Assembly (NCBI RefSeq): GCF_000349565.1
Contig: NZ_APJN01000081.1
Location: 1 to 64,000, forward strand
DNA from: Curtobacterium flaccumfaciens UCD-AKU
GTDB taxonomy: Bacteria > Actinomycetota > Actinomycetes > Actinomycetales > Microbacteriaceae
Length of the DNA stretch: 64,000 nt
Direction: 5' to 3'
The notes below the pieces were generated by a model. That model was not told where the DNA came from and ran no database searches. It saw only the letters and a program-made list of their open reading frames with translations. Below, one piece after another: positions 12,354 through 58,573 of this stretch. Positions within the stretch are counted from its first letter, which is position 1. Each line of letters starts with the position of its first letter. The position numbers and the translations under genes are program-made.

Positions 12354-12549
12354 CACCGTGCCCGGTTCCGCATCCCGTGCCCGGTTGGCCGCACCGTGCG
12401 AGCTTGCACGCCCGCACCCAGCGGCCAACACCGCGCCGGCCCGCGAAGGCGGCACGGTGCGGACGGGAGGCACGCGGCGGCCCGGCACCGCGCCTCCAGG
12501 CCGCACCGTGCCCGACTACGCATCCCGTGCCCGGTTCCGCACCGTGCGC
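12354..12549. repeat. Intergenic direct repeats with a GACGGGAGGC palindrome between them
   Basis: Two copies of a block of about 48 bases (around 12354-12401 and 12502-12549) share GCACCGTGCCCG, CGCATCCCGTGCCCGGTT and GCACCGTGCG. Between them lies a palindrome of the GACGGGAGGC family (12462-12499, copy F). No gene is visible. The block looks like accumulated repeat units at the junction of two convergent operons. Confidence 0.6.
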
Positions 12550-53256: not shown

Positions 53257-53562
53257 GACTCGATTCTGCTGGTCCACTCCGGTGTTCGATGACCGATCGT
53301 CCACCGGACACTCCGAGATCTGCGCCAGCCCCCCCCCGGAATCCGTCTGTGGGCAGCTTCGCTCCGTGTCGTCGGAATCGCTTCCTTCGGTGTCGGGACG
53401 TCACGGGTGCGCGAGACGGCTCGCGTGACGAGGGGTTCGGGTGCATACTGGTGGTGTCTTCGGACCCGGTAGTGGGGCTTGCCGGACCCAACCTCGACAG
53501 TTGTCGACAACAGTCCCTATCTCAGCTGGTCGCGTTTCTGCGCGCCTGAGGTAGGGAGTGTC
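53257..53562. promoter_or_regulatory. Leader region of the fluoride cassette
   Basis: 306 bases without a gene. It contains a run of nine C (near 53330), the 10-base palindrome TTGTCGACAA (53501-53510), a possible operator, and a hairpin over the first ribosome site (53515-53556). I looked for the fluoride riboswitch (crcB motif) pattern and did not find it. Confidence 0.6.
53515..53556 (+). ncRNA. Hairpin sequestering the first ribosome site of the fluoride cassette
   Basis: CCCTATCTCAG (53515-53525) pairs with CTGAGGTAGGG (53546-53556), 11 positions with one G-U, enclosing an inner CGCG/CGCG helix. The right arm contains the GTAGGG part of the Shine-Dalgarno sequence of the universal stress protein gene, seven bases before its ATG. 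Folding would hide the site, so a signal could switch translation of the whole cassette. Confidence 0.5.
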
Positions 53563-54069
53563 ATGACAGCACCAATAGGTACCGGACCGGTCGTCGTCGG
53601 TGTCCTACCCGGCCTCGCGCCGGCGGTGATCGAGGTTGCGTCGTCCATCGCGCGGCGCTTCGGTACGACGCTGGTGTGCGTCAGCGTGGATGCGTCGCTC
53701 ATCGATGCCGGTACGCGCTCGGACGGGTCGGTGATGGCGGAACCGATCGACCCTGACACCGCTGACACGACACCGCAGGGCTTGTCTGACAGTGACGAGG
53801 CGGCAGTACGTGCTGCCGCAACGACCTACGGCGTCGACGTCACGTTCGTTGCCGGTGTCGGGGATCCGAGCCGGGCATTGTCGCAGGTGGCCGAAGACCG
53901 CGACGCGGCGATGCTGGTCGTCGGGGCCAGGACGGGAGCGGGTCGAATCGCGGAGTTCTTCACGGGGTCGGTCGCGGCACGACTGACCCATCGCCAGCAC
54001 CGTTCAGTGCTCGTGGTGCCCGTTGATCCGGTCGGGTTCGATGCCCCGCTGCCGTGGGACACCCCGTGA
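53563..54069 (+). CDS. Universal stress protein (UspA family)
   Basis: 168-aa single-domain protein. The first strand VVVGVLPGLAPAVIEVA is less standard than usual, but the C-terminal ATP-site pattern is clear: AMLVVGARTGAGRIAEFFTGSVAARLTHRQHRSVLVVP, read as VVGARTG and GSVAARLTH. It is the first gene of the fluoride cassette. UspA proteins bind ATP and help cells survive stress. GTAGGGAG lies upstream of the ATG and the stop overlaps the next start (GTGA). Confidence 0.9.
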   Translation: MTAPIGTGPVVVGVLPGLAPAVIEVASSIARRFGTTLVCVSVDASLIDAGTRSDGSVMAEPIDPDTADTTPQGLSDSDEAAVRAAATTYGVDVTFVAGVGDPSRALSQVAEDRDAAMLVVGARTGAGRIAEFFTGSVAARLTHRQHRSVLVVPVDPVGFDAPLPWDTP

Positions 54070-54809
54070 CCGGCCAGCTTGTTCTGCTCCGCCACGGACA
54101 GAGCACTGCGAACGATGCCGGCACCTTCACCGGCTTGCGAGACGTCGCGCTGACCGAACAGGGCACCGCCGAAGCGAATCGGGCTGGGTTGCTGCTCCTG
54201 CATGCGGGCATCCGACCGGACCTCGTGCTCACGTCGACGCTCGAGCGGGCGCTCCACACGGCGGAGCTCGTCACCGACGTCGTCGGACGTGATGCGCCGA
54301 TCGAGTCGTCGTGGCGGTTGAACGAGCGGAACTACGGCGCACTCACCGGCATGTCCAAGCAGAGTACGCAAGCGGCGTTGGGGGCGGAGCAGTTCTTCGC
54401 TGTTCGCCGGACCCGCACGGGTCGGCCGCCACGCATGTCGATCCGCGCGTGGTTGGCGCTCCGGCGGACGCCGGCGCTTCGTGGACTGCCGTGGGCGGCA
54501 GTTCGTCGAACCGAGACACTGTCCGACGTCATCCTCCGGGTCCGACCCGTCCTGTCGGACCGAATCACCCCGGCACTCCGCGACGGGCAGACAGTGCTCG
54601 TCGTCGCGCACGGCAACTCATTGCGGGCACTGTGTGCCTGCATGGACGGCCTGACCGACGGTGAGCTCGCGGACCTGAACCTCCCCACGGGCGAACCCCT
54701 GGTCTACCGGTTCGACGGCGACGGTGGGTTCTGTCCGCGGGGTGGGGAGTACCTGCATCCGGCAGCACGAGCAGCAGCGGCAGCGGTCGCTGCGGAAGGT
54801 GGAACATGA
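54066..54809 (+). CDS. gpmA: 2,3-bisphosphoglycerate-dependent phosphoglycerate mutase
   Basis: Glycolytic enzyme that interconverts 3- and 2-phosphoglycerate, the step before enolase. The 247-aa length is exactly that of GpmA proteins. LVLLRHGQS holds the phosphorylated histidine (His10), followed by GLRDVALTEQG, the substrate-specific RLNERNYGALTG and the second histidine in VAHGNSLRAL. An alanine-rich tail closes it. Start GTG overlaps the Usp stop; the stop overlaps crcB-1. As a cassette gene it is probably an additional copy to the chromosomal one. Confidence 0.92.
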   Translation: MTGQLVLLRHGQSTANDAGTFTGLRDVALTEQGTAEANRAGLLLLHAGIRPDLVLTSTLERALHTAELVTDVVGRDAPIESSWRLNERNYGALTGMSKQSTQAALGAEQFFAVRRTRTGRPPRMSIRAWLALRRTPALRGLPWAAVRRTETLSDVILRVRPVLSDRITPALRDGQTVLVVAHGNSLRALCACMDGLTDGELADLNLPTGEPLVYRFDGDGGFCPRGGEYLHPAARAAAAAVAAEGGT

Positions 54810-55309
54810 CCTCCAGAACGGACACGGACCTGCCCGATGGGCAGCTCCCGCCCGACCCGGACATCGACGCCGATGACCCGGAACGTATCGCCAGGCCAGT
54901 GCATCTGCGGTGGCGGTACCTCGGTGTCGTCGCACTCGGCGGCGCCATCGGTACCGCCGCACGTGACGGACTCAGCACCGCGTTCCCCGCTCAGCACGGG
55001 GTGTCCTGGGCGATCTTCTGGATCAACATCGCCGGCGCGCTCCTACTCGGTGTGCTGCTGGAACACCTCGCGCATCGCGGACCTGACGAAGGGCGCCGCC
55101 GGGCACTGCGCCTGCTTCTGGGAACCGGTGTCCTCGGCGGGTTCACCACCTACAGCACCCTCGCGACCAGCACCGCGGTGTTGTTCCTCGCCGGCCGCGG
55201 GTTGTCCGGCACCGGGTACGGGCTCCTGACGGTCCTGGCCGGCGCGATCGCCACCGGGAGCGGCCTCGCGATCGCGGGCTTGGTCCGACCGAACGGAGCC
55301 ACATCATGA
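54806..55309 (+). CDS. crcB: Fluoride channel/exporter CrcB (Fluc), subunit 1
   Basis: Membrane fluoride channel subunit that lets toxic F- leave the cell. 167 aa, longer than usual because of an acidic N-terminal extension of about 35 residues. Family motifs: [25 protein letters not shown] with the pore asparagine, and [12 protein letters not shown] with the conserved phenylalanine and threonine-serine track. It overlaps both neighbours by four bases. Tandem unequal CrcB pairs usually form heterodimers. Confidence 0.95.
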
Positions 55310-55677
55310 GCGCCCTGGCATTCCTCAGCGTCGCTGTCGCTGGCGGCGTCGGCGCGGCCGCACGGTTCTTCGTGGATGGTGCGATCAACCGGGGTCGGCA
55401 GTTCCGGCTCCCGGTCGGGACGCTGACGATCAACATCACCGGCTCGTTCCTGCTGGGCTTGATCACCGGCGCCGCCGGTCACCTCGGCGCTACCCCCGTC
55501 GCGCTGCTCGGAACCGGGCTCATGGGTGGCTACACCACGTTCAGCACCGCCAGCTTCGAGACCGTCCGCCTCGCACGCACCGGCCGCACCACCGCGGCTG
55601 CCGTGAACGGGCTCGGGATGCTCGTCGTCTCCGTCGCCGCAGCCGCCGGGGGCGTCACCCTCGGCACCCTCACTTGA
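55306..55677 (+). CDS. crcB: Fluoride channel/exporter CrcB (Fluc), subunit 2
   Basis: 123 aa, the standard CrcB length, with [26 protein letters not shown] and [13 protein letters not shown]. It is not a close copy of subunit 1, in line with a heterodimeric channel in which both subunits supply pore residues. ATG overlaps the subunit 1 stop; pyrophosphatase starts 26 bases after its stop. Confidence 0.95.
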
Positions 55678-55703
55678 CCATCCGACTGGGAGAAGAACAG
55701 CTC

Positions 55704-56189
55704 ATGCACTTCGACATCACGATCGAGATCCCCCGCGGCAGCGGCAACAAGTACGAGGTCGACCACGCCACCGGACGGATCCGCCTGGACCGGGCGGTGT
55801 TCACCAGCATGGTGTTCCCGCAGGACTACGGCTCGATCGACGACACGCTCGGCGATGACGGCGACCCCCTCGACGCACTCGTGCTGCTGCCCCGGCCCAC
55901 GTTCCCCGGCGTCGTCGTCGACGTCCGCCCGGTCGGGATGCTCCGCATGGTCGACGAGAACGGCGGCGATGACAAGATCCTCACCGTCCCCGCCGGAGAC
56001 GTCCGCTTCGACCACGTCCAGGACATCTCCGACGTCGCCGAGCCGGTCTTGGCGGAGATCGAGCACTTCTTCGCCCACTACAAGGAGATCGAGCACGGCA
56101 AGCACGTCACCACCAGCGGGTGGGCGAACCGTGTCGACGCCGAAGCCATCATCCGCTCCGCACAGGAACGGTTCACCCCGCACCCCTGA
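55704..56189 (+). CDS. ppa: Inorganic pyrophosphatase, family I
   Basis: Hydrolyses pyrophosphate to drive biosynthesis; the enzyme is strongly inhibited by fluoride. 161 aa with [44 protein letters not shown] (the metal-binding [11 protein letters not shown] region), and VPAGDVRFD further on. ATG 55704 is chosen because it gives the family N-terminus and has GGAG upstream; an in-frame TTG at 55674 would overlap the crcB-2 stop. An extra copy in the fluoride cassette. Confidence 0.95.
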
Positions 56190-56227
56190 CCGGCACCCGC
56201 GCACCATCCAGTGCGCGCCCTGAACCG

Positions 56228-56288
56228 CCGTGGGGAGGCAACTGGCGCCCAGTGATCGCCAGGAGGTCGTCCCTCCGCCTCCCCGCGG
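56228..56288 (+). ncRNA. Candidate three-way-junction RNA before enolase
   Basis: Outer stem CCGTGGGGAGGC / GCCTCCCCGCGG (56228-56239, 56277-56288; 12 pairs, one G-U) encloses CTGGCG / CGCCAG (56242-56262, 9-base loop) and GAGG / CCTC (56263-56275). Only three bases are unpaired at the junction. It lies 39 bases before the enolase ATG in the gap between ppa and eno. It may be a terminator of ppa, an mRNA stabiliser or a regulatory element. It does not match the known fluoride riboswitch. Confidence 0.45.
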
Positions 56289-56327
56289 CCCACACCAGCA
56301 CGACCAACCCGAAAGGCGACAACCGCC

Positions 56328-57662
56328 ATGAACGACTACATCAGCAACGTCCACCACACCACCCACCATCAGGGCGAGTACGTGACCCACACCAGCCGCC
56401 CCGTCACCATCAGAAGCCTGCACGGCTCCCGGATCCTCGACTCCCGCGGCTGCCCGACGATCCAGGTGCGTCTCGAGCTCGAGGACGGCACCGTCGTCAC
56501 CGGTGACGCCCCCGCAGGCGCATCGACCGGCGCGCATGAGGCTGTCGAGCTTCGCGACGGCGGCAGCAGCTACGGCGGCCGCGACGTGAGCCAGGCGCTG
56601 CACCTCATCGCGACGGACGTCGCACCGATGATCACCGGTCAGTCGTGGACCTCGATCGGGCAGGTCGACGCCGCCCTCGCTGCCCTCGACGGCACCCCGA
56701 ACTACCGCCGGCTCGGTGCGAACAGTGTCGTCGCGACGTCGATCGCCCTGGCACGCGCTCTCGCCGCCGCAGCGGAGCTGCCGCTCTGGCGTTGGATCGC
56801 AGACGTCACCGGCAGCACGCCCCGCCTGCCCGTCCCGCACTTCAACGTGCTCAACGGCGGAGCGCACGCAGCGAATGCGCTCGACTTCCAGGAGTTCATG
56901 ATCGCCCCGGTGAACGCCGACACCATGACCGACGCGGTTCGGATCGGGTCGGACGTGTACCACGCACTGGCGGCACTGGTCCGGGAACGGTTCGGCAGTC
57001 TCGGTCTCGGGGACGAAGGCGGCTTCGCCCCATCGATCGCCGCGCCCGAGGAGGCCCTCGACCTCCTCGTCGCCGCGATCAGTGCCGCTGGCTACGAGCC
57101 CGGCGTCGACACCGTCGCGATCGCACTCGACCCGGCGGCGAACGAGTTCGCGCTCGGCGACGGTAGCTACCGGGTCGTGGATCGCCGTCTCGACCGCGCA
57201 GGCATGGTCGACTACTACCGCGACCTCACCAGCCGGTATCCGATCCGGAGCATCGAAGACGGCTTCTCCGAAGATGACCACGGCGGCTGGAAGGCGATGT
57301 CGTCCGCGCTCGGCGGCATGCTCCAGATCGTCGGCGACGATCTCTACGTCACCGATCCACAGCGCATCCGCGACGGCGGGAAGGACGGGCTCTCGAACGC
57401 AGCGCTCATCAAGCCGAACCAGATCGGCACCGTCTCCCAGACCCTCGACGCGATCGGCGTCGCACGCTCGCTCGGGATGCGGAGCATGGTGTCGCACCGG
57501 TCCGGAGAGACCACCGACACGTTCATCGCGGACCTCGTCGTCGGCACCGGAACCGGGCAGATCAAGTCAGGCGCCCCCGCCCGCGGAGAACGCGTCGCGA
57601 AGTACAACCGGCTCACCGAGATCGCGGAGAACAATCCGGAGCTGCCCTACGGGCTGCGCTGA
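56328..57662 (+). CDS. eno: Enolase, divergent second-type copy
   Basis: Dehydrates 2-phosphoglycerate to phosphoenolpyruvate; classical enolases are inhibited by fluoride with phosphate. 444 aa, with an N-terminal extension of about 25 residues (MNDYISNVHHTTHHQ) before the standard fold. Active-site segments are kept: GASTGAHEAVELRD, NVLNGGAHA, GDEGGFAP, SIEDGFSEDD, the catalytic lysine in LIKPNQIGT, SHRSGETTD and GQIKSGAPARGER. The usual DSRGNPT is DSRGCPT and the metal-site strand reads ALDPAANEF. AAAGG precedes the ATG by 12 bases. Probably a fluoride-tolerance isoform. Confidence 0.93.
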   Translation: MNDYISNVHHTTHHQGEYVTHTSRPVTIRSLHGSRILDSRGCPTIQVRLELEDGTVVTGDAPAGASTGAHEAVELRDGGSSYGGRDVSQALHLIATDVAPMITGQSWTSIGQVDAALAALDGTPNYRRLGANSVVATSIALARALAAAAELPLWRWIADVTGSTPRLPVPHFNVLNGGAHAANALDFQEFMIAPVNADTMTDAVRIGSDVYHALAALVRERFGSLGLGDEGGFAPSIAAPEEALDLLVAAISAAGYEPGVDTVAIALDPAANEFALGDGSYRVVDRRLDRAGMVDYYRDLTSRYPIRSIEDGFSEDDHGGWKAMSSALGGMLQIVGDDLYVTDPQRIRDGGKDGLSNAALIKPNQIGTVSQTLDAIGVARSLGMRSMVSHRSGETTDTFIADLVVGTGTGQIKSGAPARGERVAKYNRLTEIAENNPELPYGLR

Positions 57663-58573
57663 CCCCGACCGGTCACCTCGTGGGCGACGCGCAGGAAAGC
57701 AGAAACAGCTGGCTGGGGCTCTCCCGACCAGATCGCCCGCAACGGCCGGGCAAGTGGCGCTCCAGAGAGCGGGACCCGCACCAGCGACCCGTCGTTGATG
57801 TCGGCGGCGACCGTGCGAAGGCTCATCACCGCCGGTGCAATCCCAGCCTGCGCGTTCGCCCGGATGATGCTCGTGGTCTCCAGCACCGCGGCCGGAACCG
57901 ACATGTTCAAACCGGCCTCCCTGAGCCATGCGGCGAGGGTCGCGCGAGTCCCGGAACCTTCTTCCCGCAGGAGCAGAGCCGTCGCCGCCAGGACCTCCGC
58001 ACTGATCCCGGTCGACCGAGCCCAGGGATGGCCCGGCGCAACGACGACCGCGAGCTCATCGTCCGCGATCACCTGCGCGGACACACCTGCTGCCGTCACC
58101 GGGGTTTCCGTGAACCCGAGGTTCGCGCCACCCGACTGCACGAGGTCCGTCACCGCGGCGGAGTTGCCCGCGATCAAACGCACCCGCACGTCGGGTTCAC
58201 GGCGTCGGAATTCGAGCAGCCAGCCCGGCAGCAGCAGCTCCGCGATCGTCTGTGACGCTGCGACGACGAGCGAACCCGTGGGAGCCCGCAGCGCAGCCAC
58301 TCCTGCCTCGAGGTGGCGAGACCCGTCGAGGACCGGTCCGGCCAGCCCGACGACGAGCCGGCCGGTCTCGGTCAGCACCGACCCCGTGGTCGAGCGGTGC
58401 ACCAACAAGTGGCCGACCATGCGCTCGGCGACCCGGATCCGAGCAGACACTGCCTGTTGCGTGACGCCGAGCGCTCCAGCGGCAGCGGAGAAGGAGCCGG
58501 TCTCGGCGACGCATGCGAGCGCGTCGAGTGTGTCGAGGTCGAACGTTCGGTCCGTGAGTCGCCGTAGTGCCAC
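57647..58573 (-). CDS. LysR-family transcriptional regulator
   Basis: 308-aa regulator. Winged helix FDLDTLDALACVAETGSFSAAAGALGVTQQAVSARIR, shown as TGSFSAAAGALGVTQQAVS, and a co-inducer domain beginning GSLVVAASQTIAELLLPGWLLEF. The GTG start is a choice based on the usual distance to the helix-turn-helix; TTG two codons upstream is also possible. Divergent from a TDT transporter, its likely target. Its end overlaps the enolase end by 16 bases, convergent. Confidence 0.9.
   Translation of the reverse strand: MALRRLTDRTFDLDTLDALACVAETGSFSAAAGALGVTQQAVSARIRVAERMVGHLLVHRSTTGSVLTETGRLVVGLAGPVLDGSRHLEAGVAALRAPTGSLVVAASQTIAELLLPGWLLEFRRREPDVRVRLIAGNSAAVTDLVQSGGANLGFTETPVTAAGVSAQVIADDELAVVVAPGHPWARSTGISAEVLAATALLLREEGSGTRATLAAWLREAGLNMSVPAAVLETTSIIRANAQAGIAPAVMSLRTVAADINDGSLVRVPLSGAPLARPLRAIWSGEPQPAVSAFLRVAHEVTGRGQRSP

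Follow-up and report, generated by a model that had tools for sequence, protein, structure and literature searches.

The window that we analyzed, a 64,000 nt stretch of the Curtobacterium flaccumfaciens genome, contains a run of genes on the forward strand that encode a universal stress protein (usp, 53563–54069; PF00582), a phosphoglycerate mutase-like protein of the His_Phos_1 type (gpm, 54054–54809; PF00300), two subunits of a fluoride channel (crcB, 54806–55309 and 55306–55677; both PF02537), an inorganic pyrophosphatase (ppa, 55704–56189; PF00719), and a second copy of enolase (eno, 56328–57662; PF00113/PF03952). The usp, gpm, and two crcB genes overlap successively by 4–16 nt, gpm overlapping both usp and the first crcB. 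A further eno homologue lies at G000:C6 of the same genome (E 7e-115). The gene for a LysR-type regulator (57647–58573, reverse strand; PF03466/PF00126) is convergent with eno; this gene also occurs in the clusters carried by the Micrococcus and Clavibacter plasmids described below. Between the stop codon of ppa (56189) and the ATG of eno (56328) lies the structured element that is the main subject of this analysis (56228–56288, forward strand).

It had been predicted from the sequence that this element forms a compact three-way junction, and folding reproduced every part of that claim. A 12 bp outer stem (56228–56239 paired with 56277–56288) encloses a first inner hairpin (56243–56261; 5 bp and a 9 nt loop at 56248–56256 that contains AGUGAU), a second inner hairpin (56262–56276; a 5 nt loop and a stem of 5 bp that is shortened to 3 bp in the consensus), and a junction with three unpaired bases, AAC. 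The minimum free energy (MFE) is −39.2 kcal/mol, compared with a mean of −24.8 (SD 3.0) for shuffled sequences (z −4.80), and none of 200 shuffles equaled it. The 12 bp stem and the two inner hairpins were retained in the MFE structures of four other versions of the element (z −3.2 to −4.8); the 3′ hairpin is the weakest part, since one version retains just 2 bp of it and one centroid lacks it altogether. The fold is also self-contained: no pairs left the element when it was folded within 171 nt of context. In the window and in two homologous loci (L023 and L037), the pair probability of the outer stem was 0.91–1.00, the expected number of pairs from the element to the outside was 0.0–0.14, and the probability of being unpaired averaged 0.55–0.59 over the 20 nt that precede the eno start. 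No expression platform was seen in the three sequences folded with context. Kissing between the loops of the inner hairpins was considered by eye and rejected, as it requires several G-U pairs and is disrupted in one variant.

Searches with Rfam gave no match over the window at gathering score, and at E ≤ 10 the region 55600–56500 gave two weak matches, both outside the element, and none to the fluoride riboswitch family RF01734. The element therefore fits neither RF01734 nor any other Rfam family, and the original prediction was right to place it outside the fluoride riboswitch consensus. Its topology is also different, because in RF01734 the loop of a hairpin forms a pseudoknot with a 3′ strand, and the whole lies in the 5′ untranslated region of a first gene, whereas the element is a nested junction inside a run of genes. 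Nor did we observe the general features of a riboswitch, namely an aptamer with an alternative fold or a sequestered signal.

A promoter/terminator scan returned nothing at the element. It ends in CCCACACC and has no U-tract, and so lacks the combination of GC stem and U-tract that defines a classical (L-shaped) terminator. It does have the long GC-rich stem, the absence of a U-tract, and the position at a gene end (38 nt past the ppa stop) that characterize I-shaped terminators, and in GC-rich Streptomyces, structured 3′ ends without a U-tract are a recognized group according to one study (PMC8269248, citing Mitra 2009). The element differs from the I-shaped terminators of that study in having two inner hairpins with conserved loops and in lying inside an operon.

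The genome itself is rich in U-less hairpins. The pattern GGGAGGC-N(2-30)-GCCTCC occurs 160 times on one strand and 147 times on the other (a large share of the sites matching on both), compared with 4 and 6 for a control. Among the matches listed, these palindromes are mostly 33 nt long, and their inner arms vary and stay self-complementary. Copies are present in the window at 12465, 17150, 20884, and 30447, and hairpins also occur at 1–40 and 25279. With neighbors assigned by a simple gene caller, 14 copies of the 33 nt form lay in convergent gaps (five), tandem gaps (seven), divergent gaps (none), within a gene (one), and in a place without called neighbors (one). They look like repeated U-less terminators, and they resemble the repeated TRIT terminators of mycobacteria. 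The element shares with them the stem word GGGAGGC/GCCTCC and the lack of a U-tract, and the copies checked, like the element, are mostly intergenic. It does not belong to their family, however: at 61 nt it is branched, single-copy, and carried on mobile DNA, whereas the palindromes are mostly simple 33 nt hairpins with at least 160 matches. A check for the same sequence at unrelated gene ends found no second copy of the element in its own genome, the next best match to its model scoring 20.4 bits (E 5.6), and we rejected the idea that it is a repeated terminator copied around the genome.

A model of the element built from 11 distinct sequences (R1) detected it in 35 of the 66 genomes searched within the genus. 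Across the order, in a search with stricter filters that lose weak matches, R1 found it in one of 396 genomes, that of the window. A pattern scan of a contig collection yielded 114 stretches, 37 of which were confirmed by the model (21/80 and 16/34); the other 77 were taken as chance. The confirmed stretches come from Curtobacterium, Amnibacterium, Plantibacter, Microbacterium, Frondihabitans, other Microbacteriaceae, and Tersicoccus. Two fluoride clusters within one genome occur in the cases of L080 (G022:C21) and L067 (G003:C3).

The element also occurs where the genes around it are different. In one genome (G052) it lies 21 nt past the second crcB, and neither ppa nor eno was found in the cluster; on another contig (G003:C9) it follows a remnant of ppa, and eno was not found; and in G061 and on plasmid pCff119 it follows ppa, with eno downstream as a remnant only. 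That the element is present without an intact eno argues against a switch dedicated to eno and favors a function where the upstream transcript ends, although this presence may reflect recent loss alone. A more distant relative in a further genome (G026) is 64 nt long, with a score of 33.6 bits that corresponds to E 0.00034 in 88 kb and to E 0.014 over the whole genome. It keeps the 12 bp outer stem and has two inner hairpins that differ in sequence (z −4.3), and it lies between the gene for a 268-residue protein without a Pfam match and an aquaporin gene (MIP).

To compare conservation along the locus, we used 13 clusters in which the ppa end, the element, and 600 nt of eno could each be located, leaving aside clusters with short flanks, unmatched motifs, or an identical element plus spacers. 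Pairs with an eno identity below 95% were treated as diverged. Over the 63 diverged pairs, which are not independent of one another, mean identity was 94.1% in the element, 86.9% in the last 300 nt of ppa, and 80.2% in the first 600 nt of eno, and it was 46.8% and 59.4% in the spacers before and after the element. The element was more conserved than ppa in 60 of these pairs and more conserved than eno in all 63. Given the narrow and horizontally spread range of taxa, part of this conservation may stem from recent shared ancestry or recombination. At L080 and L067, an element 98% identical to that of the window stands beside a ppa that is just 84% identical, which suggests recombination in the gap.

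Among 14 distinct sequences, 98.6% of 293 cells were paired in the structure (100% in the outer stem), the AGUGAU of the first loop was invariant, and the loop bases GGUCGUCC were nearly so. The compensatory changes that the original prediction had proposed to look for were present in one part of the structure: of the 21 pairs, two had two-sided changes, each within the outer stem, and 4 of 500 shuffles reached this count. With 11 sequences, the same count gave one two-sided pair and was reached by 42 of 500 shuffles. Covariation support for the outer stem, which also tolerates U-G and G-U pairs, is thus weak. The inner hairpins had no two-sided changes and two unpaired cells in each, so that they are supported by conservation and energy and not by covariation. 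Together, these observations support the conclusion that the element is a conserved structured RNA in a fluoride-resistance operon.

Loops that hardly change, presented on a rigid fold around an almost empty junction, could also be read as the mark of an RNA that binds a protein or RNase, in which case a host factor would recognize the loops and cut the operon mRNA or control eno. The relative in G026 speaks against this, as it keeps the topology with different hairpin sequences, and the adjoining LysR gene is an inconstant neighbor that was not found at L047, L079, or L082. We regard a protein- or RNase-binding RNA as possible but rather unlikely.

Of 72,556 plasmid records, nine contained the element (E 1e-5), from Micrococcus luteus, Clavibacter phaseoli, and Curtobacterium flaccumfaciens; another 15 records, the best of them at E about 2, were at the level of chance. 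The Micrococcus plasmid carries the whole cluster with its gene order unchanged, and genes for a recombinase and a Mu-type transposase follow a few kilobases downstream. Because it is found on plasmids and in several genera, the fluoride-resistance cluster is mobile, among soil and plant bacteria. This mobility, the nearby recombinase and transposase genes, and a weak match of the reverse strand to the model are all compatible with a DNA-level site, that is, a 12 bp palindrome serving as an operator or as a recombination or transposon end, with the RNA fold being incidental. In complete clusters, however, the element lies within the run of genes and not at its edge, its asymmetric inner hairpins are conserved, the U-G and G-U pairs tolerated in the stem fit an RNA, and the genome has no further copy. 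A DNA-level site is therefore improbable.

A second structured RNA, which was discovered by comparing usp starts among relatives, lies at the head of the operon (53465–53523, forward strand). The loop of its first hairpin (53466–53485) forms a pseudoknot in which 53474–53479 pair with 53512–53517, and a second hairpin follows the first (53494–53507). In the proposed expression platform (53515–53556, forward strand), 53515–53523 pair with the Shine-Dalgarno sequence at 53548–53556. The platform strand overlaps the pseudoknot strand at 53515–53517, and this sharing of the 3′ strand of the leader suggests a translational ON switch.

The leader has the architecture of RF01734, with a P1 hairpin carrying an 8 nt loop, an AAC linker, a second hairpin, and a pseudoknot between loop and 3′ strand, and it stands before fluoride-response genes, with crcB, eno, or usp downstream. 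It differs from RF01734 in that the loop has GUG and not AUG, CAAC-R replaces CUGAUG, and scores fall below gathering where tested. The RF01734 model did not match the leader of the window even at E ≤ 10, and gave no match at gathering score for the leaders of 20 loci, its four hits at these loci falling elsewhere in L083 and L084. Of 11 leader places, seven matched on the same strand at 19.8–27.3 bits (cut-off 34), and the leader places L231, L242, L266, and L270 gave no match at E ≤ 5. Conversely, an RF01734 hit over the cut-off (L041) scored 19 bits with the leader model R2. One sequence (L285, 3451–3513, in G105) is intermediate between the canonical riboswitch with an AUG loop and the variant leader, and matches both models. 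Two genomes, which have a related eno cluster with a different gene order, contain canonical RF01734 besides variant leaders (G026, L083 4652–4724 and 13855–13924; G073, L084 6441–6514 and 17310–17380). Other Rfam candidates were rejected: a V_AS7 match in L085 scored 46.3 bits, where gathering requires 90, and matches to miRNA, sRNA, and snoRNA families were below gathering score.

Leader model R2, built from 10 sequences, matched 67 of 398 genomes of the family at E ≤ 0.001 (51 of them reaching at least 35 bits) and 68 of 394 genomes of the class Actinomycetes (43 reaching at least 35 bits), both searches being run with stricter filters that lose weak matches. The leader also precedes another crcB in the genome of the window (G000:C18). 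The first gene after it at 61 distinct loci was crcB (34), usp (20), gpm (1), eno (1), or none of these (5). In an alignment of 54 distinct sequences, drawn mainly from the best-scoring loci, the leader hairpins were 97.1% paired and had two-sided changes at 7 of 11 pairs, and their covariation score was reached by none of 500 shuffles. The 8 nt loop was GUGGGGCY in 53 of the 54, with its partner RGUCCC downstream; the variable pair of the pseudoknot was UA in 32, CG in 17, and UG in 5, and the other five pairs were constant. We read the leader, from sequence comparison that included the solved fluoride aptamer base by base, as a variant fluoride riboswitch with fluoride as its presumed ligand.

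We paired elements and leaders by fixed motifs in the window and in loci over 5 kb, merging copies with identical flanks. A leader lay 0.9–2.8 kb upstream of all 16 distinct elements that had at least 2.79 kb of upstream sequence; the remaining 4 of the 20 had at most 2.4 kb, which is too short to judge. The relative in G026 has its variant leader 0.9 kb upstream. In the window, where the distance is 2.76 kb, the leader is likely to be the fluoride sensor of the operon, and with a fluoride-riboswitch-like leader already at the operon head, a second sensor is not needed.

This bears on the suggestion, made in the original prediction, that the element itself gives fluoride- or metabolite-responsive control of eno. 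A riboswitch or aptamer for fluoride, 2-phosphoglycerate, or magnesium would suit a structured RNA with conserved loops upstream of eno in a fluoride operon. The near absence of a junction leaves little room for a binding pocket, however, and there is neither an alternative fold nor a strongly sequestered ribosome site; moreover, the element is found without eno. We consider such a switch very unlikely, and a fluoride- or enolase-responsive role of the element is not supported.

We favor the interpretation that the element is an intra-operon transcript boundary, either a partial terminator or a 3′ stabilizer, that uncouples eno from usp-gpm-crcB-crcB-ppa, and we give it roughly an even chance of being correct. 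In the mRNA, the element would fold autonomously downstream of ppa, forming a three-way junction of high stability. Some transcripts would end there, as at an I-shaped, U-less partial terminator, and/or the element would shield the usp-gpm-crcB-crcB-ppa message from 3′ exonucleases; we infer termination or stabilization from its structure and position. In either case, eno would be expressed at a level unlike that of the genes before it. The fluoride response would be set at the leader (53465–53556), which would sense fluoride and gate the ribosome site of usp, with the overlapping genes presumably following by coupling. The element would then divide the usp-to-ppa block from eno, and it probably determines the level at which this last gene is expressed.

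There is a precedent for unequal expression within such an operon. The fluoride operon of Enterobacter cloacae FRM gives a full and a shorter mRNA, and its upstream genes are induced about 100-fold and its downstream genes about 10-fold (PMC5533749). In the same text, that operon resembles the one studied here in its gene set (ppaC, usp, eno, gpm, and crcB) and in the single fluoride riboswitch at its head, and the transposases on both of its sides recall the mobile cluster described above. It differs in gene order, in its Mn-dependent ppaC, in a sixth gene, and in having a canonical RF01734, and the text covered names no structure at the internal boundary (PMC5533749). Because U-less hairpins are common at gene ends and because of the Enterobacter precedent, a partial terminator or 3′ stabilizer is the most economical explanation of the element. 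We also count in its favor that the relative in G026, which has a like topology, separates two other genes in an operon that likewise starts with a leader.

Processive antitermination RNAs, which include EAR of eps operons and the put RNA of phage HK022, offer a further model, in which the element would help polymerase to reach eno; a compact RNA that lies within the operon and ahead of its last gene in complete clusters, together with a relative between two genes in G026, would suit this, but the range is narrow, the operon is short, and the element occurs in clusters that lack an intact downstream operon gene, which leaves this the least credible of the explanations considered.

We class the element as a boundary structure, branched and conserved, that lies within an operon. 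Structured RNAs between the genes of one operon include EAR (also called epsC RNA) and the REP-type intercistronic hairpins, and the element is like these in position and differs in being without any Rfam match. The invariant AGUGAU is unexplained by a plain terminator or stabilizer, neither of which needs conserved loop bases. A bolder proposal is that the element represents a new class of intra-operon regulatory RNA, whose loops are bound by a host factor or by polymerase and which, with the leader that Rfam misses, tunes eno under fluoride stress; we hold this to be a long shot. In the literature listings and passages covered, we found no earlier description of the element or of the leader variant, and nothing that joins fluoride, Curtobacterium, and crcB.

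The leader is perhaps of more interest than the element. It is widespread among actinobacteria, is apparently a variant fluoride riboswitch, and has been missed by the Rfam cut-off. A 2024 review puts the share of Fluc (crcB) genes under riboswitch control at only about 15% and credits Streptomyces cattleya with extensive riboswitch-based regulation (PMC11139923). Variant leaders could increase that share, and given the regulation in S. cattleya, the leader variant may be known in part already. For the element, the wider meaning lies in gene dosage. Fluoride operons need enolase and pyrophosphatase to keep running during fluoride export, and little is known of how doses are tuned within such operons; a conserved, single-copy, structured RNA at an internal boundary, carried along with the operon from one genus to another, makes such tuning of gene dose testable.
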